Source: Albugo candida (lineage: Eukaryota; Oomycota; Peronosporomycetes; Albuginales; Albuginaceae). Taken from it: DNA of 64,000 nt. The translations under genes and the position numbers were made by a program. The DNA lies in NCBI GenBank assembly GCA_905220665.1, contig CAJNAR010000164.1:620001-684000 (forward strand). Reading direction: 5' to 3'. The notes beneath the pieces were generated by a model, which was given only the letters and a program-made list of their open reading frames with translations, ran no database searches and was not told the DNA's origin. This document shows, piece after piece, positions 1-15,045 of this stretch (position 1 is its first letter; every line of letters starts with the position of its first letter).

Positions 1-3000
1 CAATACAGAAAATCTACAAAGTGAACGGTTTTCTATGGAATGTAAGATTCAGTTCGTCGATAGGAGACATTCCTTGTTTGGAGGGTGTGCTTTCTTCGCC
101 GAGTGAGACGAAGCTCTTGATCACGGATAACCTTGTACGAGGTAAAAAGTCAACAATGTACGAGATATCGCACCTTTTGCCTGGAATACCTTATTATGTC
201 AGAGTTGCTGCGAGTAACGAACTTGGCCTTGGGCAACTCTCAGTCACAAAGCGTGCGATGCCAAGTGGAATACCCGCAGCAGTATCCAAAGTACAATCTG
301 GACCTGCTCTATTCGTATCGGAGGTTCAAGCTGTTCAGACAGCAGCCACTTATATCAATGAGATACAAAGTATATCCACTACAACTGCTAGAATAATTGA
401 GATTCAGACTTTACAAACTCGTATCTCGGGGTCCTTCATGAGCAATTGCTTGGATGGAGCTTGTATCAAAGGCTCCATAGCGTTCAGAATTCCAAGTGTA
501 CAAACGATCACGGTTACTTCCTCTGCTCCGTTTCGTGGTGAGTATGTAGTTTCTTTTATACGTCACGTTGCAGATAGCAATTCGATTAATGCTGGTCAAT
601 TCGTTGTTCTTGGGAGTGTCATTGATACAATCCCTATTTCGTGGAATGCAGCTGCTGATGACTTGAAGGATAAATTGGTGCAGCTTTCAGCATTGAACAC
701 TGACGATATCGTGGTTACGCGAGATGGAGATGGTACGCTTGCGTCTGATTATGGATATACATATTCAGTCACTTTTGTTGGAAACAATGTTGCGGGCCAA
801 ACTCAACTCATGAAAACTTCAGTGTATCCTGATTGTGCAACTTGTGATGCGCTCCTGACAGTAACAGGTGATGCAGTGTCGCCTCCAACAGTATCAATGA
901 ATGAAAATATAGCAATGGGAAGTGATATCGCAATACAACGAGTATTTGTGGCGGCAGATAAACCGATCACTACAGGAGCCTTCTATCTTACTTTTACGCA
1001 TCTTGGAGCTTCCAAGACCACCACTTGTATTGAATATGACGCACCAGCACGAGAAGTAAACGATGCCTATCAAAATTCGGTCGAGTTCATATTAGAAAAC
1101 CTGCCAAATGTAGACGATGTATACGTCACGCGTTCGGCTGATCCTTCACAAGCACCTAATGGATTTTACTATGATATATACTTTCTTGGAAACGGTGTGT
1201 ATGGCGACATCATGAGATTGGACATCGCTGAATGTCCATCGTCACCTTTTAGAACATCAATTGACTCGCAGCTTTACCCCACTAATGCACTTCTGAGTGT
1301 CATCATGATCGACTATGGAGGCTATAATCCAGCTAATACTTTTGTTTCTGCTGGTGCGGGTACAGCAGAGCAATTACAGAAAGATCTGAATCAGCTCCCA
1401 ATGTTTGGTAACATCAAAGTCACACGATCACTCTCAGATGCAGAAGGGGGATTTGTTTGGACCGTCGCGTATGGAGTTGAAAATGATAACGTTCCTCAGT
1501 TTATTTGTGGAGCTGATGCAACATTTCAAGCTCTTAGTGATGCTTTTTGTGAGACGTCAACCCTGGTGGATGGAAATGTAGTAGCTGGTTCTTTCATTCT
1601 TGAAACATCGAGTCTGATACCATTTGATGCGAGTTCAGCAACTATGGAAGCCGAACTAGAACGAATTGGCTGGATCGGGGATGTTCACGTCGAAAGATTT
1701 TCTCTCTCACCACAAGATGGATACACATGGATGGTAACTTTTGTAGAGTTTGAAGGAGATGCACCAATGCTTCAAGCTACTAATCTTCTTCTCGGAACTG
1801 GGAGCACGGTAGTCATTGATGAAGCGCGTAAAGGAAATGGAATAAATGGAAGCTTTAGGCTTTCTTTCAAAGGTTCCTGGACGGCACCCATCGCTGCAAA
1901 CGCTCCTGCCAATTCTGCAGAATCTCGGTATGATGGCTCATCCATGCAAGAAAAACTAGAAGCACTTACGAGCATAGGGAAGCTTCAAGTAGAGAGATCA
2001 GCATACTCTGTTGATTCGGAAGGGGGATATCGCTGGCTGATAACGTTTTGCGACAACGTTGTTAATTCGGGAGATCTACCTTCCCTGAAAGCAGATTTTC
2101 AAAATCTTACCGGTACAGGTGCTCTTGTCTCTGTCGAAGAAGTTTTGAAAGGATCAAAAGCAGTAGGAAATCAGGTCTGGCTCTCTTTTGAGCCTCCCAT
2201 AACATACCGAGGAGCTCCCATTACAAAGTATCAAGTGAGGTGGGATACAACACCGACATTTTCTTCCACCGCTACTAAAGAACTTTATATCGATGACCCG
2301 GCGCTACTAAATTACAAGCAAACTATCGTAATTGGAGCACCAAGCTTAGCTTGGTCAAGTCAGAGACTTCAGGAACGAGCAGAAATTCAGACTTTAACAA
2401 TTGGGTCTTCTGGTGCGTTTAGCCTTTTCTTTCGAGGAGAAAAAACTCCCTCTTTCACTGTCAGCACTAGTACAACGTCCGATATCTCATTGGCTCTGTC
2501 AAATCTGCTATCAATATCGTTTGTCACTATCTCACCAGAAGCGGCTTTGCTTGTGCCTGGTCTGGAAGCCTCCATCACATTTACGAACGAAATTGGCGAT
2601 CTACCTCTATTAGGTACTGATAATCCTGATGGTGCAAGCATCACCGAAAGACAACGCGGTGTGACAAATTTTCGAAAAGAGGTCAATGTTTTCAAATGTA
2701 GTGCTGCAAGCGGTTCCATTCAGTTCCAGACAAAAATGGCAGTAGGATTCTCAGGCCAGTCTCGCAGCATATCCGTTGCCTCGAGTACCTCACTTTCAGG
2801 GTTACAAACTGCACTTCACACACTTTTCAATGTAGAGAAGACATCGATTACGGTAACGAGCTTGCAAAACCTTTTGTGTGCATCACCAGCTCCCGCACCA
2901 GTAATCATCACATTCCATCGACTTTATGGTGATATTGATCTAACAATATTCTATGGAAGTACGGACCTGGCCTTTTACGAAGCCAACATTGATGGAGTCT

Positions 3001-6000
3001 ATCCTGACATGTTCGGAGCAACAAGCGGCACATTCCAAGTTGGCTACCAGGGCGCTTTCACACGATCCTTGGATTCAAATTTACAACATCGAGATATGAG
3101 GCTTGCTTTGGAAAGTCTTGATACAATACAAACAGTTCATGTGACCAGAGAATACGCGGCGTGGTTTATCCAAGATGTCGGTACTGTGGATGCTAATCAG
3201 GGCCAGATTTATGTGACTTGCTCGAGAAGTGCGACATGCAAATTCAAGCAAGCAATGTATGGGGTTCCGGGCTGCCTCATCAAAATTGGCGGTAATTGGT
3301 ATACGATAAGATCCGATACTGATTCCACTCAGGGATTGAGCTCTTCAAGACTATACTTGGGGGACATGAATGGAAGAGAAATTGGTTATATCGCGCAAAG
3401 CGCTAGAAATATTAGCGTTTATGAGTGGATCAGAGGTTATAATTATCGTGTTTCCATGTTGCAAGTAAAAGAACCGATTTTGCCATTACAAATGAAAAAG
3501 CCGAGGCTTACTCCACACGATGCATTTGTACGAATTGATGGTCGGCCTTGTCACAAATGCCATTATATTCCGACGAAAGCGGTAGATAACTTGATGATCG
3601 GACAGCTTCTATACGTTGACGTGCATGCTTACAATATAAATGGTCGAGGAGAAGATGGAGTTACCGCACTGGTCACACCTAATCAGATTCCCGATCCTCC
3701 CATGAACGTTGAGCTCCGTGTTCTCTCCAGTAAGGAAATACAAGTTTTTTTCTCTCCTCCGGCAATTTCGACTAGCATCATGAGTTCGAATCTCAACAAA
3801 GATATCTCTTCCTATTTGATACAGTATGATACGAACGATGAATTCATGCACGGCCGCGAGGTATGCTCAAAATGTGCGACAGCTTTAAGTGGCTCCGCTC
3901 TTACAACAACGACATCCTTACAATCGAAGTTCGATAATACTCTCAATCAGTTCTGGATAGGACAAGACTCCGATTGTGTGTTAACTGTCATTTCCGTTCC
4001 AACCTCTACCCGTGTGAATGTTAATCTTGGCCTTGGGTGTAGGCGTTTGTTTTTCACCGGAATGAATTTTTCCCTGTACTTCCATAGAGGCAAACCTGCC
4101 ATTTTGTCTGGGGGAGCTTTGACAGGCACACCTCCGTTCACACATATTCTCTCTGGCCTTATTGGGATGCAAACCTACTATGTTCGAATAGCAGCTGTGA
4201 ACTCGATTCCGGTACAACAGATATCTTACTCCGGAGATCCACCAGATAATCGTAAATGGTCCTCTCCAATTTCAGCAATGACGAAAGACAACGTACCAGA
4301 TAATCCGATCACCGTGGTGCTTAACGCTTTCTCGGGGTCAATCATGGAAGTGCAGATTCAGCCACCCACACAAGACGGAAAAGGAACAGGGGGACTTTCC
4401 ATAACTCATTACTGGATTGATATCGATGAAATAGCGACATTCAACTCCACAGGGAAATCATCCCCGGCGCTTATCAGTGTGAACTCGCTCTCATCTATAT
4501 ACCCTGGTGGACCTCTTCTCCATTACATAACTGGCCTTGACACAGCCGTACAATATTATGTGCAAGTAAAAGCAATGAACTCGATAGGATATAGCCGTTC
4601 CACCCAGGCTTCCAACTCTGTAACTTTGGTAAAAATGAATTCCGGGCCACAAGAAGTAAGCATACATTTTCCTTCCTACTCATTGAGTCAGAATGAATCT
4701 GGCAAAGCCGTCACTACTGCAACGATATCGTGGAAACCACCTATCGATGATGGCGGTAGCGATATTGAATCATACATTGTGGAATGGTGGAAACTGGAAG
4801 GGCGGCATGAAGTTCAGTTATTACAGATAAGTTGGCAAGTAGATCCGGTCAATGTAGTTCTCTTTCGGGTTGCTTTCGGAGGAGTCATGAGTGGATATCT
4901 TCCTTATGATGTTCAGCCGGAAAATCTGCGCAGTGCGTTAATGAACCTTTACCTTAATGGGAATCCAGTAATTGGTCATGTTCGTGTAACGAGGACGATG
5001 AATCGTGATAGGAAGGGATACGAGTGGCTGATCACATTCTTGGCCGATCAAAATTTCGGAGACCAACCGTTGATACAGCTCTCTTATCCACAGAACAGCG
5101 GTATCAACGGAAGAATATATGATATAACGTCAGGTGTGTCTACTCCAACCACTGCTGACTTTCCTGGCAAGCCAGAAGTGCAAGTGCTAGTCATTTCTGG
5201 TTTGTCGCCACCAACTGGATACTTCCGTCTAAGTTTTCGCGGCTCACAGTGGACTAATTATGTTCCAGCTACAGCAGATGATAGCATTCTTAAAACTGCA
5301 TTGCAACAATTACCAAGCGTAGGGCGAGTAAGTGTCTCTCGTTCCGTTTTCTTGGGGTCCAACAGCTACATCTGGAAGATCACCTTTGAAACAAATGTTG
5401 GCGATCAGCCTCCATTTGTCATTGATCGGTCCAAAATACATCCAGATAGCACATTTATCGGTATCAAGGACGGAGAAAATGCAGTTACAAGCACTGGAGA
5501 ACGATGTCTTCCGGGGGATGATCCACTCACCTGCCCAGGAAGCTGGAACGGTTATTCTACAAATATCGCCGGCATGGCAATAATCGGTGAATCTCCAATA
5601 GATTATAAAAGTCATCAGACCGCAACTTCAAGTGTCTTAACGTACCAGGTATCCAAACTCAAACCTGGTAGCACCTATCATGTTACTGTGAGCGCAAAAA
5701 CTGCGATCGGAGTAGGACCACGCGTTAGTGCATTTCCAGCCCCACTTATCCCACCACTACGAGTTCCAGCCCCTCCAAAAGATGTAATGGTTGATGTCAA
5801 CCCCGGGTCAACTACTCAGCTTATAACAAAATGGGAGTCTCCGGACAATGATGGAGGAGCAGAAGTCCAAATGTATCGTGTTCAATTTGATTCTTCTCCT
5901 CGATTCAATGGAAATCGAGGGGAGGAAAATGTTTGGTGTCCCACGGCACCCAAATTAGCCGTTTGGAGTGTTCAGACTGCACGGGTTGACAATACAGTTG

Positions 6001-7670
6001 CAAACCCGATCAGTAAAGGATACTTCCAGCTCGAGCTTCGACGGGACTTGAAAATTTTCCCGTCCGAGCCTATTCCGTGGAATGCAGTTTCAATGGCAAA
6101 AGAGGAGGTCGGATCAGGCATTTTTTCTCAATCCAAAGTATTTTGCACGATTTGTTCAGCTTGTACTGATACCTGCGATAGTAGCGCAGTGCCACCAGTG
6201 TTCTTGAAGCGCGAATCATCAGGATCAATGCAGTCAAAATTAGAACACATTTTTGCATTATCGGTAGGTGTTCATGTAGACACTGCTATACCCAATCCAA
6301 GCGGTGATGGTGGGTACAAGTGGATAATTACTTTTCTCGATGCAGGTGATGACTTCGCTTTACTACCAGGCACAAATGCCCTGTACGATTCTTCAAATAA
6401 TGGTGGCGCAGGATTATACTCTGTCACCACGACGAAGCTTGTTGCTGGTGTCTATCCCGGACCGTGCACAGGAGCTCATTCGATTCCGAGTAGCGGAATT
6501 CTCAACAAAGGACAATTTTATCACATGCGTGTTTTCGCCTATAATCAGGTCGGATTCTCACAACCAACATCTGCGTTATATCCACAGAAACCGATGGTTG
6601 TTCCCGGTCTTCCAACAGGTGTCACAACAAGAGTGTCTAGTGCGTCTCAGTTGCAAATTGTTTTCAGCGATCCAGATGATGATGGAGGAGATAAGATTAT
6701 TGAATATCTGGTGGAATATGCCACAACTGTTTATTTTTCCGATGCGAAAAATTTATCTGTCACTTTCCTACAAAATGGTCCACCATACTCTAGGTTGATT
6801 TCAGGTCTTCAGAAAGGAACTTTCTACTTTATTAGAGTAAGAGCTCGAAACTCGCAAGGTCTCGGTCAAGCACAAATTGCATCTCCAATGTCACTAAATC
6901 CTTCGGTAAAACCCGGACCTCCAACTAATGTTGTCGTAGGTGTCACATCTCCTAGTATGCTTACCGTCGGCTGGAATGTACCAGTTGATGATGGTGGTGA
7001 TGCAATAACCGCATATAGAATTCAATGGGATGCTAACGCCATGTTTGAAGCCTGGAACCTAGATGCCAATACTGTAGTTGTTACTGACGTATCATCACGA
7101 TCATACACAATCGGAGGACTTCAGCATTTAGCAACTTATTACGTTCGAGTGATGGCACAGAACTCATTAGGAGTTGGTACCTCACAATTGGCGTACCCAG
7201 GTGGATGGATTCCAACCAGTCAACGACCGGGAAAGCCGCATGCTCTCAATGTCGAACGTACCCAGTCCATTGGCGAGCTGCTTGTCTCGTGGCAACCGCC
7301 AAGCATTCCTGCTCACGGAATTCCTTGTGGCGGTTCTTTGGAAGCCCCTTCTTCGTGCGGAACATTAAGTGGCAGCGATGTCGCATTTGGCGGCTCGTAT
7401 TTTCAAAAATACGAGGTTCAATGCTCGTCAAGCGCTTCCTTTCCGGTTTCGACAACTGTTGCAATAACCACCACGACAACGAGCACGCTCTTGACTGGGT
7501 TGTCATCTTCTTTACGCTACTTTGTTAGGATACTAGCCATCAACTCTGAAGGTCTCCTCAGTGAGTTCTGTCAACGCAAGGACCTTGACGGGTACCATTG
7601 CCCAGAAAATCAGATTTCAGCATCCAATTCCATCATCACAGGGCCACGTGCATCAGAAGTACCACTGTGA
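1..7670 (+). CDS. Giant fibronectin type III / beta-module protein, 5' end outside the window
   Basis: The frame is open from the first base to a TGA at 7668-7670, giving about 2,555 residues without a visible intron. Seven or more fibronectin type III domains can be read, for example starting with PDPPMNVELRV (about 3690), PAPPKDVMVDV (about 5770), PGLPTGVTTRV (about 6605), PGPPTNVVVGV (about 6915) and PGKPHALNVER (about 7230). Most carry the DDGG turn and a YxVRV/YFVRI G strand. Between them sits a second module of about 100-130 residues, in roughly eleven copies. Its pattern is a GxFxLxFxG strand, a short helix like MQEKLEAL, then VxVxR and GYxWxVTF followed by GDxPxL. Cysteine pairs and N-glycosylation motifs suggest an extracellular or lumenal location, but no signal peptide or membrane anchor is in view. 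Family function is unknown to me. The codon frame is clean, so this is not a pseudogene. Confidence 0.85.
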   Translation, partial: IQKIYKVNGFLWNVRFSSSIGDIPCLEGVLSSPSETKLLITDNLVRGKKSTMYEISHLLPGIPYYVRVAASNELGLGQLSVTKRAMPSGIPAAVSKVQSGPALFVSEVQAVQTAATYINEIQSISTTTARIIEIQTLQTRISGSFMSNCLDGACIKGSIAFRIPSVQTITVTSSAPFRGEYVVSFIRHVADSNSINAGQFVVLGSVIDTIPISWNAAADDLKDKLVQLSALNTDDIVVTRDGDGTLASDYGYTYSVTFVGNNVAGQTQLMKTSVYPDCATCDALLTVTGDAVSPPTVSMNENIAMGSDIAIQRVFVAADKPITTGAFYLTFTHLGASKTTTCIEYDAPAREVNDAYQNSVEFILENLPNVDDVYVTRSADPSQAPNGFYYDIYFLGNGVYGDIMRLDIAECPSSPFRTSIDSQLYPTNALLSVIMIDYGGYNPANTFVSAGAGTAEQLQKDLNQLPMFGNIKVTRSLSDAEGGFVWTVAYGVENDNVPQFICGADATFQALSDAFCETSTLVDGNVVAGSFILETSSLIPFDASSATMEAELERIGWIGDVHVERFSLSPQDGYTWMVTFVEFEGDAPMLQATNLLLGTGSTVVIDEARKGNGINGSFRLSFKGSWTAPIAANAPANSAESRYDGSSMQEKLEALTSIGKLQVERSAYSVDSEGGYRWLITFCDNVVNSGDLPSLKADFQNLTGTGALVSVEEVLKGSKAVGNQVWLSFEPPITYRGAPITKYQVRWDTTPTFSSTATKELYIDDPALLNYKQTIVIGAPSLAWSSQRLQERAEIQTLTIGSSGAFSLFFRGEKTPSFTVSTSTTSDISLALSNLLSISFVTISPEAALLVPGLEASITFTNEIGDLPLLGTDNPDGASITERQRGVTNFRKEVNVFKCSAASGSIQFQTKMAVGFSGQSRSISVASSTSLSGLQTALHTLFNVEKTSITVTSLQNLLCASPAPAPVIITFHRLYGDIDLTIFYGSTDLAFYEANIDGVYPDMFGATSGTFQVGYQGAFTRSLDSNLQHRDMRLALESLDTIQTVHVTREYAAWFIQDVGTVDANQGQIYVTCSRSATCKFKQAMYGVPGCLIKIGGNWYTIRSDTDSTQGLSSSRLYLGDMNGREIGYIAQSARNISVYEWIRGYNYRVSMLQVKEPILPLQMKKPRLTPHDAFVRIDGRPCHKCHYIPTKAVDNLMIGQLLYVDVHAYNINGRGEDGVTALVTPNQIPDPPMNVELRVLSSKEIQVFFSPPAISTSIMSSNLNKDISSYLIQYDTNDEFMHGREVCSKCATALSGSALTTTTSLQSKFDNTLNQFWIGQDSDCVLTVISVPTSTRVNVNLGLGCRRLFFTGMNFSLYFHRGKPAILSGGALTGTPPFTHILSGLIGMQTYYVRIAAVNSIPVQQISYSGDPPDNRKWSSPISAMTKDNVPDNPITVVLNAFSGSIMEVQIQPPTQDGKGTGGLSITHYWIDIDEIATFNSTGKSSPALISVNSLSSIYPGGPLLHYITGLDTAVQYYVQVKAMNSIGYSRSTQASNSVTLVKMNSGPQEVSIHFPSYSLSQNESGKAVTTATISWKPPIDDGGSDIESYIVEWWKLEGRHEVQLLQISWQVDPVNVVLFRVAFGGVMSGYLPYDVQPENLRSALMNLYLNGNPVIGHVRVTRTMNRDRKGYEWLITFLADQNFGDQPLIQLSYPQNSGINGRIYDITSGVSTPTTADFPGKPEVQVLVISGLSPPTGYFRLSFRGSQWTNYVPATADDSILKTALQQLPSVGRVSVSRSVFLGSNSYIWKITFETNVGDQPPFVIDRSKIHPDSTFIGIKDGENAVTSTGERCLPGDDPLTCPGSWNGYSTNIAGMAIIGESPIDYKSHQTATSSVLTYQVSKLKPGSTYHVTVSAKTAIGVGPRVSAFPAPLIPPLRVPAPPKDVMVDVNPGSTTQLITKWESPDNDGGAEVQMYRVQFDSSPRFNGNRGEENVWCPTAPKLAVWSVQTARVDNTVANPISKGYFQLELRRDLKIFPSEPIPWNAVSMAKEEVGSGIFSQSKVFCTICSACTDTCDSSAVPPVFLKRESSGSMQSKLEHIFALSVGVHVDTAIPNPSGDGGYKWIITFLDAGDDFALLPGTNALYDSSNNGGAGLYSVTTTKLVAGVYPGPCTGAHSIPSSGILNKGQFYHMRVFAYNQVGFSQPTSALYPQKPMVVPGLPTGVTTRVSSASQLQIVFSDPDDDGGDKIIEYLVEYATTVYFSDAKNLSVTFLQNGPPYSRLISGLQKGTFYFIRVRARNSQGLGQAQIASPMSLNPSVKPGPPTNVVVGVTSPSMLTVGWNVPVDDGGDAITAYRIQWDANAMFEAWNLDANTVVVTDVSSRSYTIGGLQHLATYYVRVMAQNSLGVGTSQLAYPGGWIPTSQRPGKPHALNVERTQSIGELLVSWQPPSIPAHGIPCGGSLEAPSSCGTLSGSDVAFGGSYFQKYEVQCSSSASFPVSTTVAITTTTTSTLLTGLSSSLRYFVRILAINSEGLLSEFCQRKDLDGYHCPENQISASNSIITGPRASEVPL

Positions 7671-7833: not shown

Positions 7834-10800
7834 ATGTCGTTAAATACCTTTATGAATTGGCAGAGTCTGAAGCAACGACATCTTTATTTCTCTGATACCG
7901 TTGCTCATCGTGTCATATTTGCTTCCCTACTATTCACATTGCAATGCTGTGCTCATGTATTGAGCAACGTCTCTCGCGACACGATCTTCCTACGGTCATA
8001 TCAAGCCACAAACATTTCCTCTCTCACACTGTTTCTCTCATGTACTATCGCGATTATAATGAGCGAATCTCATGCTATACTCATGCAAATAGTGAGGATT
8101 CTCATGCCAAACAACCCAGCATGTCGCACCCGAAAACTCTCTCAACTTCTTGATACAACGTCTACAAAAAAAAATACAGGAAAGCAAGAGCAAAAGTGTA
8201 CAAGCGACTCGACCTATTTGAATTGGATCACCTCAAGAGATGAAAACCGTGCCAAGTTGTACATGTATCCTTTGTGTCCTGGAGTCCTTTCCGTTGGCCA
8301 AATGATACTTGCATTCTTCTCCCTCTACTTCCCTGTCTTAAATTCTTATACATCAGTTATGATCTACATTTGGATAGAGATAGCGGCACAACTGATGACT
8401 CAACAATTTTGGGATTTCTGTTCTAGGAATTTCAACGTCACAGAGGCCAAACAGTACTTTGGATTTATCACATTTGGCTCTACATTTGGGAGTCTAATCG
8501 CCAGTCTCGTGTTATTACCATTTTTACAGAAAAGAAACATGGTGGAAGAGTGGAACTTGGTTTTAGCCGCATCCTTACAAGCAATGTTAGCTGGTATTTT
8601 ATCAGTATATACGTGGCAAAAGGAAGCGCTTATGCTGTCATCGAGCAACACTGCAGAGATTGCGCGATCTGTCTCTAAAAGTCATGTAAAATCAGCAACA
8701 AGGAACCCACGAGTAGCAAGCTCACGTTTATGGACTATTATCCCACCAAACATCGCCGTCGAGATTAAAAAGCGAACATATTTACAACACATTTGTATAT
8801 TTGAGTTTTTCTCAACAATTGTACGAGTTCTTGTCGACAACTCCGCCCTTTCGATTTTATCTGAGCAGAAAGAGTCCGACATTAAATCCTCACTTGCAAT
8901 GATGAGTAGCATTCAAAGCGTTTTAATGATACCGCTACAGATCGTATCAGGACGGTTTTTTGGTCGATACGGCGTGATGGTTGGTATAAGCTTGCTACCG
9001 CTGAGTGTAAGCTTTTACGGGATCACGACGCTACTGATCTCGGCTTCCTGTGTCTCCAAACCAACAGGAATTTTGCTTCTAATACTTCATCGTGCGCTAT
9101 ATCTCGCTATATCGCTGGCTATTTTCAATCCTGCGCGAGAGCTGCTATGGCTTCCTCTTAACGACCGCGAACGCCCACAATTCAAAAGCTTTGTTTATGG
9201 TCCTTTTCGATCTATATCACGAATCGTTGGTGCCTTGTTTACTATGGTGTTGACTTCCTCGATATGTGTGGGCTATCTCGGTTCTTCTACTTTGAGCATC
9301 TTACTTGTTACAATATCCGTGTTGTGGTTGCTGAATGCGTTGGCAGCTAAGAAGTCGTACGCTATTGAGTTTTACGCCTCATTGAAAAAAGGCTATCTTG
9401 ATTTACGATCTCACATTATCGACTTTACACCTGATCAGGTCAGCACCAGTCTTGTATTTTTACTGGAACGTTCCATTATACTCTAAGTTTGTAGATTGCA
9501 GTGGTGAAGGGGACGCTCGCTTCAGGAGCTCAAGATCAAGTAAATTACGTGCTGAATTCTTTGACTCCATCGCATATACCCATTTTTGCCCAGGTATGTG
9601 GCTGAGTCTATGAGAGATTGACTTGATTATTTTATGATGTGATTCTAGGAGCTTCGAGCTTTATTTTATAGGACGGACCATGAAAACTTTGCGGTGACTC
9701 CCTTGAGTATCAAACTTCGCCTTCTGAAACTACATACACTTGCTAAGAAACAATTCGTTTTGAAAGCTAAAGATTCTTTTGTAATTCCCGATGGAAAGAG
9801 TTGCCCGCCGTCTATTTTCAATAGTATGGACCTGATGCTGCTTGTGGCACAAGACCGACCACAATCAGATTCTGAATGTGACTCCGCGGTTACTGAGCAA
9901 AAAAATGGCGGAACTGCGCAGTGTCCACAGTGGTTTGTGCCTCGACAATTACGAGTGGCCGCTATTCTGGCATGCGGATACGAGATCTTTAGCACTGACA
10001 ATTTACAGTGCAGAAGGATGTTGGAGAAACTACTCTCTCAAGAGCGTGAAGACTCAGAAGACAACGCAGTGTCAGTGTGTGCAGCAGTAGCTTTGTTACG
10101 TTTAACAGACTGGATGGACGAACGCGCAAATATGATTCTTCAGCGTTTATTACACGAGGAGGAAGATCTAGAGGCTCGTGTTATTTGTCTCCGTGTTGTG
10201 GGCGAAGAAATACCCGAACTTCTCGGAGATGGATTTCTTGTTTATCTGCTGCACCATGAGTCAGAACAAATTGTGCAAGCGACAGTTGAATGCTGCTTGC
10301 GCACTTCGCGTCAGTCCCGTATGCTTATCCCAGCGCTCATACAGCACTTGGGAAAATCATCTGTACAAATTCGCATCGTGAAGTCATTGCAACGATGTGA
10401 TGCCAGAGCTGTGTGGCTTGCTATATCTCGTCATATCGAGGAACTCGTGCAAGATTTCTTTGGAGATAGTGCTGCAGCATCACATCCCGAGTTTTGGTAT
10501 GATCATACACAGGCTGTGCAAAAGAGAAAGAACCTTATCGGAGCTTTGAAAATTTTGGAGACGATCCAACATCCAGTCGAGCCAAAAGTTGAATTCATTG
10601 TTCAGCTATGTCTGAGGATAGTGAAAAGGGCGACACCAGAAGTTCTTAACACGAAGATGAACTTGCCCATGAATAGCGCACCCTATCAAGGAGATGACCA
10701 GGATAATTCACTGAACCCGGATTATTTACCTCCTGTGGGTTATCAACAGACTTCTCGAAGCCCAGATTTATTACATCGGCTATTTGGAAGGAACACATCT

Positions 10801-13293
10801 GTAGTGGAAATGCTGATTGATACACTGATGCCACTGGTAAGTGACTTTTACGACCCTGGTCTATTTGCACTAAATTTGAGATTATTCGTAGCTCACCCAA
10901 AGCGATAGTAAATCCCTTGCCTCTCAACTTGAGCCACTTGACAAAGTGTTGAATGCCAAGATTCAGGAGGCTTACGAGATGGCTCATGTGATGAAGCTTT
11001 TCAAGGAAATGTGCCCACATACAGCAAGCAACATTGGCGAAAAATCTCTACTTATATTGCAACACGTGCAGCAGTGTCTTGCTGATGTTCGACGAATGAT
11101 ATTAAAATTGTTAGCAACAAGATTTCCAAAAGAGTTCAATATCAGGGTGATAATCGAAGGGCTGGATTCAGAAATATCGCAGATACAAGCAGCAGTGTTT
11201 GAAGTACTCGATAACCTTGTTTCGAGTAACTACAAGCACTTTGTGCTCCCCTTATTGTTTCCATCCACCAGCTTTTGCACCAAAGTAAGCTACTTATGCT
11301 TACTCTCACATGCTTGAACCTAAACGTTTTGGATCATTTTGCTGCTCATTAGCTGCTAAAGCAGGTGGAAACGTTTTTCGAAGGGAAGAAAGGCATGCAA
11401 CTCTTACTCGAGACTTTGCAGGAAGAGCAGTTACATAATGAGCTGACTGGAATGGCTCTGCAATATTTTCTTCATATTTCCGAGTTTCATGCAAATCTGA
11501 TTGAGAGCGACATCAGTAACGTCTTCAACCACAGAGTTTTACCGCAATTATTGAAGCATTCAATCACTAGAGAAGTGCTGGTAGAGACATATCACAAGTA
11601 AGTGGGACGAGAAGCATTGCTTATATATATGTTGTCTCATTTGTTGTATTCTTCATATCTACAGAAATCGTCCAAATTATCCGTATGAGTCGCTAGTAGC
11701 TCTCGAATCAGAAGCGATACCCATTATCTCTCAAATTGCAGTAAGAATGAATGACATAGCGCTACCAGATTTTCATGTTTTTTCTGGCAATGCAGACGTC
11801 GACCTGCTTGCGAGCCTCGACAGTATTTGCGACAGCTTATACTATTGATATATTGCGATCCATGTCGTACCAGTTCGTTCCAGTCCGTGTAAAGAAAGGA
11901 GAGACATTTATTACTGAAGGAGCCGTAGGTGATATTTTTCGCTTTTCGCACAATGCAATCGGTTTCTCACCAGTGATTCTTTCCAAGCATCGGTTGTGTA
12001 TATTGTTGCAGTAGGAAAAGTGCATGTGCACAAAAAAAGCTACTTGCTGGCCGAGATCACATATGGGGGATGCATTGGTCAGACAGCCCTATTGCGCCAC
12101 CATCTACGACCCGGTGTTCACATTTCTTCTGCCACGGCATCAATTGATTGCATTTTGTTGAGCATCTCAAGGCCTGCTTTAGACGCCTTGATGCGAGAGA
12201 ATGGTCGTATCTCACTCGGCGTCTTACAATCTGTAGCATCCGCATTCCGTTTCATGTACTTTAAGGTCAGTGTGCGCTATCCAATATTGAGTGGTGAGAC
12301 TTATCAGGTGCTATGATCAGCCAAGGCGTATCATAATGGAAAAGGGAACATTACCAATTTATTATAAAAAAAATGAGATTGCACCAAGCGATACCAGTCT
12401 CTCACCCCCCACGGAAGATGATAGCGAGCCTCTGCAATCCTCATCGGCAAGAAATATCTCGTTTGCAGGCTCGAAAGCACTTCTTCGTCGAAATACAATG
12501 TTCTTGGCTCGGGAAGCATCAAGCACTTCAACCCACGAACAAGACAAAATTTATTCCCTAGACAGACACCAATCAGATGCGTCCCAGGGCTTGGCTTCTA
12601 CTTCCAACTTCATTTCCTCCAGTTGCGCTGACAGAGAATACACAGAGTTCGAAAAGTGTATCAATCTTAAGGGTTCCCACCTTTTGCGCAGTCTTGCGGA
12701 TGACAAGGTCTCGTTGGTGGCTTACCTAGCGCAAGTACGCACGCTGCTGCACAAGGAAGTACTTTTTTTGGAAAGTGATAAAGCTACTCATTTTTTTATT
12801 ATTATCAACGGAACGATGACAATCAGCTACGACGACAAGAGTCAAACATGCTCGGAGCTGCACAACGGCGACTGCTTAGGCGAAGAGGTATGCGCACTTC
12901 ACAATATCAAAGCTTGTAATTCACTCATATTCCGATTTGCTCATACGATAGTCGTTCGATTGTGATGGAGTCATGCAAGGAAGCGCTTCATCCAAAGGAC
13001 GCACTACTCTGTTTGAGTTTCTCACAAGTGAGCTGATTGAACTGAGTCAGTCCCAACCAGAGCTGATGCATGCGCTGCTGGCTTGGCTGGCAGACAAGTT
13101 ATCAAAATCAGTCGAGTCGATGTTCGAGTTTTTGGTTTCCACCTGTATACCACCGTCAGCTTGCCAACCGGTTGTAGTTGAACCGACCAAACCTGTGCCA
13201 CGCAGACATGAAACTCTACAAAAAGAAGATGCGTGTTATGAAGGTCGTCGCGAAATTAGAACGAGGCGAGGCTATCGGGCACAGTCAACATGA
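7834..13293 (+). CDS. Npt/TLC-type nucleotide transporter fused to HEAT region and two cyclic-nucleotide-binding domains
   Basis: I join ten exons: 7834-9438, 9495-9593, 9649-10836, 10892-11284, 11353-11597, 11665-11740, 11796-11928, 11988-12265, 12321-12887 and 12952-13293. The product is about 1,641 residues. Residues 1-530 form a multi-span membrane domain. It has the ATP/ADP-antiporter (TLC/Npt) signatures QQFWDFCSRNFNVTEAKQYF and, late, ARELLWLPLNDRERPQFKSF. The middle (exons 2-6) is helical, HEAT-like repeat sequence. Exons 7-8 hold a first cNMP-binding fold (KKGETFITEGA, then YIVAVGKVHVH). Exons 8-10 hold a second (FLESDKATHFFIIINGTMTI, LHNGDCLGEE). Introns are 55-68 nt with phases that match. 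The same domain order is known from bacterial Npt1/Npt2-family proteins. I infer membrane transport of nucleotides or a related solute gated by a bound ligand. The acceptor at 11988 is the least certain junction. The end lies 16 bp from the convergent neighbour. Confidence 0.8.
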
Positions 13294-13309: not shown

Positions 13310-14707
13310 CTAGTTCTTTGATAAATGAAGTTCTTCAAACACCGGCAGCAATGTTGCAAGAAATCGAGCCAACTGCTCGGCTTCAGTATCTGGTCTCGAA
13401 TCCGGTGTGATTTTTTTGCTTTCTTGAGTACTTTGCGGCGGGCTGTCGACATGGTCCACTCTGAGACCATCTATATGATGCTGAACGCATCCTCCCAGCT
13501 CGATCGAAACGATTGCACCACGTTCTTGTTCATGCTGAGTCATCCGACCTACTAGTAGTAAGCTATGAAATGCATCCGGGGAAAAACTACCATTTTTGTT
13601 CATATCTGAAGCGACCCCAGCGGCATTTACTGATGACGGAGAAGGTGTCACTGGAATAGCAGCTGCCGAACCAGTCGAGGTTCCAGACATAGGTTCCGGC
13701 ATCGAGCGAGAGAGCGCAAAAGCGCGCAAATAAGAGTTACTTAGTGTCCCCATCGAAATCACCCATTGTCCCGAGTTTGAGGCCTCTGGGCACTCGCGAA
13801 TAGAATCGATCGTTATCAATGGCTTGGGGATCGAAGTATTCGCTTGCATGAGTAGTGTACGCCATGACAGCGCCACTTGTGGGGGTGCGTAAACCGGAGT
13901 AGTCTCTTGAACTACTGGAAGAAAAGCTCGAAGTAGTTCCTCTTTCTGTGTAAACTCCCATATCTCCAAGGCTGCTTGCTCAGCAGTTACATTACTTATT
14001 TCGTGAGAGCAATGGAAGGAAAGCGCATTGTGACCATCACTTGCAAACACGCTAATTATCCAGCCACGGCTCTGCACCCTGGTATGCTCCGGGTAAGCAT
14101 CGATGTTGGATTGCTGGTCTGCCAGAACATTCAATAATTCCAATCCATGCAGATAGCACTCCGTTGCTGCAGCTTCAATATGTTTTCGTATGAATCTATT
14201 CGGGATGGTTTCATTCTTCTCACATGTCTGCTGCCAGCGACTCACAAGTTCCAAGATTTCCGAGTCTTGGAATTCGTCAAGTTCACTGTCGGAAGATGAG
14301 TCCTCTGATGCATCATCATCATTACCTTCGAGATCGTTGTAGCATTGATCAGCACTAACGCAATTGTTTACATTGTACTGTTTTATTGGTACATTGGCTA
14401 GTGGCGCAATCGCAAATAAATTGTAAAGTGTTTGCATCCATACTTGATGATCGGTCAGCTTGCTTTTGAGAAACGAAATTCGGTCCTGAGTTTCTGAGAC
14501 CTTACAATGTGCCTCCAGAGCTTGTAGAGCATAAGGGCTATACTGTCCCTTAATCACTTCGATTTCTCGACGGACGGATTCTAACCGAATCAGTATGGGA
14601 TCATTTCCATGCTTGAGACGTTTTCGAGGCCGACATACTTGTTTGTTGGACGAACTTTCATCTCCCTGCTGTTGTACTGATCGATCATCCTTCTCATCCA
14701 TTTCCAT
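13310..14707 (-). CDS. Uncharacterised acidic/coiled-coil protein, possibly START-like
   Basis: Single-exon gene of about 465 residues. The first ATG of the frame is at 14707 (MEMDEKDD); the frame extends 13 codons further upstream without an ATG. The N-terminus has a basic stretch (RPRKRLKHG) that could be a nuclear signal. It is followed by a predicted coiled coil of about 70 residues and a Ser/Asp/Glu-rich linker (DDDASEDSSSDSELDEFQD). The C-terminal 250 residues look globular, with regularly spaced Trp residues (RGWIISVFASDG, LEIWEFTQKEELLRAFLP, GQWVISMGTLSNSYLRAF). This layout of basic/coiled-coil head plus START-like body resembles the large oomycete M96/START-like family, but that is a resemblance only. 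It is convergent with the transporter gene, with 16 bp between the stop codons. It is divergent from the TPR gene at 15046. Confidence 0.7.
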   Translation of the reverse strand: MEMDEKDDRSVQQQGDESSSNKQVCRPRKRLKHGNDPILIRLESVRREIEVIKGQYSPYALQALEAHCKVSETQDRISFLKSKLTDHQVWMQTLYNLFAIAPLANVPIKQYNVNNCVSADQCYNDLEGNDDDASEDSSSDSELDEFQDSEILELVSRWQQTCEKNETIPNRFIRKHIEAAATECYLHGLELLNVLADQQSNIDAYPEHTRVQSRGWIISVFASDGHNALSFHCSHEISNVTAEQAALEIWEFTQKEELLRAFLPVVQETTPVYAPPQVALSWRTLLMQANTSIPKPLITIDSIRECPEASNSGQWVISMGTLSNSYLRAFALSRSMPEPMSGTSTGSAAAIPVTPSPSSVNAAGVASDMNKNGSFSPDAFHSLLLVGRMTQHEQERGAIVSIELGGCVQHHIDGLRVDHVDSPPQSTQESKKITPDSRPDTEAEQLARFLATLLPVFEELHLSKN

Positions 14708-15045
14708 TTCTCCAAGTGTGGTCGAACAAATTTTTCGGGGATACACAAAGTGTTCTGTCTCGGCGTTGTCTCATAATTCGTATTGAGACACGCTGATGTT
14801 GATGGTTTTGAAAACGAAAAGTTTCAATAGTGATTCATTCGACCTATAGGAACTAAGGGCTTATCAGCGATATATTATTTGTCTTGTTACAGTTGCTGCG
14901 AAAGGTATAAGGACTTCGCTCACACTATAGGTAGAAAGAAGCCATTAAATCCATCTTCATCAGAGACCAGGCGAGTGGCATAAATGTCTGTACGCTTGGA
15001 TTTTCAGGTTGATCGAAATTACATAATTGACACTTTTTTGTGTAT
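14708..15045. promoter_or_regulatory. Divergent intergenic region (about 340 bp)
   Basis: This stretch separates two genes transcribed away from each other (13310-14707 on minus, 15046-17390 on plus), so it must hold both 5' regions. I see no clear TATA element and no conserved ORF. An in-frame ATG at 14984 leads only to a short frame that stops before the TPR gene. A spliced 5' leader is possible because a TTTTCAG occurs near 15008. Confidence 0.4.

Follow-up and report, generated by a model that had tools for sequence, protein, structure and literature searches.

An NTT-HEAT-cNBD fusion gene with introns in Albugo candida: bacterial relatives and doubtful cyclic-nucleotide control

The window considered here, a stretch of 64,000 nucleotides from the oomycete Albugo candida (contig CAJNAR010000164.1, positions 620,001 to 684,000 of the forward strand), carries at its positions 7834-13293, on the + strand, a gene of ten exons whose cleanly spliced and intact reading frame specifies a protein of 1641 amino acids. 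From the N-terminus on, the protein has an NTT-type membrane domain, a HEAT-like solenoid and a pair of cyclic-nucleotide-binding domains (cNBDs); the gene is a further member of the oomycete NTT-HEAT-cNBD family of Major, Embley and Williams (2017; PMC5381601), who describe the domain combination in oomycetes together with the duplicated cNBD, introns and an ancestral bacterial transfer. An earlier note on this DNA had called the architecture unexpected for an oomycete; it had already been reported there, and a 2019 diatom review restates the finding. What is new is a firmer neighbour lineage, which narrows the likely donor, and evidence that speaks against cyclic-nucleotide control of the classical type for the family. 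The exons are as follows.

7834..9438, + strand: exon 1, NTT/TLC-type membrane domain, residues ~23-518 (AlphaFold2 (AF2) model, fold matches, hhalign)
9495..9593, + strand: exon 2, start of the HEAT-like solenoid (splice model, orthologue alignment)
9649..10836, + strand: exon 3, HEAT-like solenoid (hhalign, sub-cut-off HEAT_2 in orthologues, helix-pair model)
10892..11284, + strand: exon 4, solenoid continued (splice model, orthologue alignment)
11353..11597, + strand: exon 5, solenoid continued (splice model, orthologue alignment)
11665..11740, + strand: exon 6, end of the solenoid (splice model, orthologue alignment)
11796..11928, + strand: exon 7, N-terminal half of cNBD1, which starts at ~11808 (Pfam, splice model)
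11988..12265, + strand: exon 8, C-terminal half of cNBD1, which ends at ~12250; phosphate-binding cassette at 12077-12121
12321..12887, + strand: exon 9, linker, then the first part of cNBD2 from ~12666; cassette Gly-Glu at 12879-12884
12952..13293, + strand: exon 10, remainder of cNBD2 (to ~13101), C-terminal tail and stop; Met (residue 1536) at the cassette Arg position

All nine introns are GT-AG and each is 55-68 nt long, the splice sites being predicted and backed by orthologue alignment; for intron 7 an alternative GT lies close to the chosen donor site (11929). Twenty-two oomycete orthologues (P0001-P0022) are 41-45% identical to the query over 85-98% of its length, three additional oomycete proteins cover 38-74% of it, and identity to Saprolegniales orthologues is 32-39%. 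Length and domain order are alike in Peronosporales, Pythiales and Saprolegniales, and since the orthologue alignments run through all ten exons in many oomycetes, the locus is best read as one gene and not two. The earlier proposal of a single eukaryotic protein of ten exons is borne out by the splice model and the full-length orthologues, and a reading as separate genes, which that proposal had left as a way to be wrong, was rejected, short of cDNA, on orthologue matches across the whole gene model. Family members were present in every oomycete group that protein searches returned; PMC5381601 describes a Pythium ultimum gene with 13 introns as expressed. In the A. candida genome itself this locus was the sole match among the matches listed. 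Six orthologues (P0014, P0018, P0024, P0028, P0030 and P0032) bear the database name ‘ABC superfamily’, and for P0024, whose precomputed Pfam list includes ABC domains, a merged neighbour gene is the probable source.

Recognition of the membrane domain was indirect. The Pfam TLC model (PF03219) scores 14.3 bits on the query, below its curated cut-off of 21, and no higher than 18.5 bits in five orthologues, the cut-off being a detection convention rather than a defining trait of the NTT superfamily. No relative was found when exon 1 alone was searched by sequence against the PDB, and a Pfam TLC search of the A. candida genome matched nothing, this gene included, and so is uninformative on other NTTs. 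With Pfam TLC below cut-off, profile-profile comparison and a fold model were needed, and these were productive: hhalign matches bacterial NTT-HEAT proteins at E 6e-59, and the AF2 model of exon 1 (pLDDT 85.3, pTM 0.83) has as its closest solved folds AtNTT1 (Arabidopsis NTT1), the closest, and CpNTT1. On modelled fold and homology the domain is a member of the NTT (TLC) superfamily. An identity as an ordinary MFS protein, the outcome that the earlier note had set against its own view, was ruled out by a structure search in which inward-facing NTT1 structures outrank other MFS folds; the membrane fold sides with NTT1.

Four charged residues of AtNTT1, K155, E245, E385 and K527, matter for its transport according to the literature, and by profile alignment they correspond to T65, E182, D335 and R463 of the query: E245 is retained, E385 and K527 have conservative replacements, and K155 is lost. 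Among 36 oomycete rows E182 is invariant (33/33 readable), as are D335, R463 and R459 (36/36 each) and K206 (35/35), and the K155 position is Thr in 30 and Val in 4. The nine Marinimicrobia fusion rows have Phe at the K155 position throughout, Glu (7) or Asp (2) for E245 and Glu (7) or Ile (2) for K527; among 32 other bacterial fusion rows, Glu stands at the E245 position in 12 and Lys at that of K527 in 4. Because Lys is absent from the K155 position in all 41 bacterial fusion rows too, its loss is a family trait and not decay, and the fused group may lack ATP-for-ADP exchange. Judged from these alignments, the charged path is conserved within oomycetes, and the protein is not to be filed as an ATP/ADP translocase of NTT1/Npt1 type, ATP as substrate being unproven. 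A membrane domain devoid of transport, with the protein acting as a receptor-like scaffold, would be in keeping with the Thr/Val of oomycetes at K155; against it are the invariance of the other charged residues and the bacterial rows just mentioned, and it is considered very unlikely.

For the solenoid, Pfam gives no HEAT match on the query, and HEAT_2 in orthologues stays below its cut-off, matching at E 0.01 in 4 of 13 rows. Profile-profile comparison and fold modelling were needed to detect homology for both the NTT and the HEAT part, though the first row of the hhalign set is exon 1 only, so that the HEAT part depends on 12 orthologues. The modelled orthologue solenoid consists of helix pairs (pLDDT 64, low confidence) with weak structural matches to CAND1, AP2 and SF3b. 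Of the profile searches that the earlier note had suggested, only that for cNMP-binding succeeded on the query (cNMP_binding, 69.3 bits over two stretches), TLC and HEAT failing as described; the domain order it had proposed, NTT, HEAT, two cNBDs, nevertheless stands, with HEAT accepted via profile comparison and the low-confidence orthologue model.

The phylogenetic position was approached with trees of increasing care. A quick initial tree with 65 rows, for which 7 of 117 bacterial proteins were excluded beforehand and the remaining 110 clustered to 55, placed P0135 as neighbour of the oomycetes (SH-like approximate likelihood ratio test, SH-aLRT, 99). A contig scan seeded with P0135 and P0139 gave 27 loci, and because 22 of these are titled Marinimicrobia or Neomarinimicrobiota, the P0135 lineage is taken to be Neomarinimicrobiota. 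A second tree of 51 hand-picked rows, including eight of those 22 loci and two of the five titled only ‘bacterium’, has the query within one oomycete clade (SH-aLRT 100). After removal of nine of the 51 for long branches or redundancy, the careful tree of 42 rows groups nine oomycete and eight Marinimicrobia rows at 100/100, a group retained with the HEAT part alone (100/99) and with the NTT part alone (99/93). The query falls outside five Peronosporales/Pythiales rows (92/90), a branch position that would fit Albuginales. Two other placements of the oomycetes were rejected by the approximately unbiased (AU) test, one beside a group of seven rows that centres on P0026 and P0070 (p 0.0004) and one beside two bacterial two-cNBD rows (p 0.0009), the groups in both having been set after the first tree. 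All of this is to be read with the long oomycete stem, the hand-picking of rows and the presence of no row identified as Bacilli in mind. Among the sampled rows, the nearest bacterial lineage is Candidatus Neomarinimicrobiota. In PMC5381601 the closest sequence is a single one from Marinimicrobia (support 72), and two-cNBD Bacilli are named as an alternative. With the oomycete sequences forming one clade beside Neomarinimicrobiota, a bacterial origin with later introns, as the earlier note had surmised, is supported at the level of sequence.

A different type of question is posed by the cNBDs, for which the same paper proposes tuning of uptake by cAMP. All cNBDs were aligned to one profile, and the oomycete set for the phosphate-binding cassette comprises 36 rows, some of them near-copies (five from P. 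nicotianae), with six rows gapped per domain and one poor gene model, P0036, scored as non-Arg. The cassette Arg of cNBD2 is absent in 30/30 rows by alignment column and in 29/29 by spacing, though of the latter P0001, P0018, P0019 and P0036 are apparently mis-modelled there and two rows have an Arg no more than two residues from the site; the cassette Glu is kept in 29/31 readable rows. In cNBD1 a four-residue insert in the query and in Peronosporales/Pythiales allows the Arg site to be placed in either of two positions. With the alignment anchored at its C-terminal side, as in the PDB alignment to PKG, the residue is His in 28 of 30 rows (His1291 in the query), Gln in one and Gly in one (the poor model); with the spacing taken from the Glu position, the residue is His in 20, Thr in 5, Tyr in 2 and Lys, Ala and Arg in one each. 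The cassette Glu position of cNBD1 is Gln in 23/30, including Gln1278 of the query, and Glu in seven, six of them Saprolegniales. By comparison, cassette acid and Arg are kept in 55/59 bacterial one-cNBD proteins (many near-identical Sorangium rows among them) and in 19/19 readable Marinimicrobia loci (of 22, with L024, L028 and L030 excluded). Three metagenomic bacterial two-cNBD fusions outside the oomycete clade, P0059, P0061 and P0064, have neither the Glu nor the Arg of the cassette in either of their cNBDs. In a short cNBD tree, subject to a long-branch warning, each copy forms a single oomycete clade (100/100), so both presumably predate the split of the sampled oomycetes; a leader-sequence comparison of which cNBD is ancestral gave too faint a signal for use, 10 bits for the best oomycete cNBD2 and below zero for that of the query.

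The reading that seems to us moderately probable is of a bacterial fusion transporter, acquired once from near Neomarinimicrobiota and then supplied with introns, whose cNBDs are no longer classical cAMP or cGMP sensors. Acquisition would have preceded the split of the sampled oomycete lineages, the donor would lie near Candidatus Neomarinimicrobiota, and introns would have been gained after transfer. The protein may exchange or import across a membrane some phosphorylated solute, nucleotide-like or other. Its solenoid would then lie in the cytosol and bear the two cNBD folds, whose present role would be that of a coupling module, structural or protein-binding, or of a sensor for a different ligand. 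Loss of classical sensing is suggested because the cyclic-phosphate Arg is mostly gone from the family. The query itself is a partial exception, informative for the cAMP question: its R1287 (12107-12109) has the usual Arg spacing from the Glu side, the sole Arg among the 30 rows, and the one-profile alignment likewise puts it in the Arg column, both of which count against the interpretation just given. Even so, neither query cNBD passes the classical cassette test, cNBD1 having Gln, with Arg under one gap placement only, and cNBD2 Glu without Arg.

Were cAMP or cGMP to bind one or both cNBDs and gate transport, the two good cNMP_binding matches, R1287 and the retained Glu of cNBD2 would be as expected. 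Nine adenylate/guanylate cyclase domain matches in the A. candida genome, e.g. G000:C11:278391-281117, also suggest that cyclic nucleotides are likely made there. However, with Arg lacking in both orthologue cNBDs and in cNBD2 of the query, and Gln for Glu in most cNBD1 rows, such second-messenger control is distinctly unlikely. For the family, cNMP gating is judged unlikely, and for the query protein less surely so. The nucleotide-controlled transport of the earlier note consequently keeps its two cNBD folds and, in cNBD1, R1287, while the control itself is doubtful. The published cAMP-tuning idea thereby becomes open to direct test, and what the sequences predict is mostly unfavourable to it. 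Sensing of a non-cyclic purine, possibly the transported nucleotide or nucleoside, would have an analogue in the trypanosomatid PKA regulatory subunit, where, according to an eLife 2024 paper, Arg loss plus an Ala-to-Glu change accompanies nucleoside binding. Arg loss is one of those changes, and the His adjoining the site in 28/30 cNBD1 rows exceeds expectation for a decayed site, but the second change is absent, the query having Ala (cNBD1) and Ser (cNBD2) at that position (Glu +2 by our own count), and this too seems unlikely. Slightly less so, and tentative, is that cyclic-nucleotide recognition was given up when the cNBD was doubled at transfer, leaving a transporter gated by another ligand, e.g. 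its own nucleotide-like substrate; retention in oomycete cNBD1 of the His beside the lost Arg bears on this. A link between doubling of the cNBD and a new ligand or role is hinted at by the absence of the Glu/Arg pair from P0059, P0061 and P0064 also.

As to the surroundings of the gene, upstream on the same strand (3-7670, +) a single open frame of 2555 amino acids with fibronectin type III matches runs off the window edge, and directly after its stop is a lone N (7674). Downstream, Pfam gave nothing at E 0.001 for a convergent open frame (13310-14770, -; 486 amino acids).

Compared with known systems, the gene shows no difference in kind from the oomycete NTT-HEAT-cNBD family, sharing its domain order, duplicated cNBD, introns, bacterial origin and oomycete-wide occurrence, with 41-45% identity to Peronosporales/Pythiales orthologues; among the papers listed by literature searches, none showed a functionally characterised member or a functional follow-up. 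The Neomarinimicrobiota proteins (e.g. L009, L014 and P0135), closest in the tree, have in common with it the NTT, solenoid and C-terminal cNBD, but theirs is one cNBD with a canonical cassette in one uninterrupted frame, where the query has two cNBDs and introns, and identity in the NTT part is 17-23%. The match to Npt1/Npt2 that the earlier note had drawn is loose: the NTT-type fold is common to both, but characterised transporters are, per PMC5381601, single-domain NTTs, the HEAT/cNBD fusions being a separate, uncharacterised clade. With the plastid and chlamydial ATP/ADP translocases NTT1/Npt1 (PDB 9j3l, 9j3n) the query shares that fold and, at E245/E385, E/D; those proteins are single-domain, K155 is not conserved, K527 is Arg, and identity by structural alignment is 13-14%.
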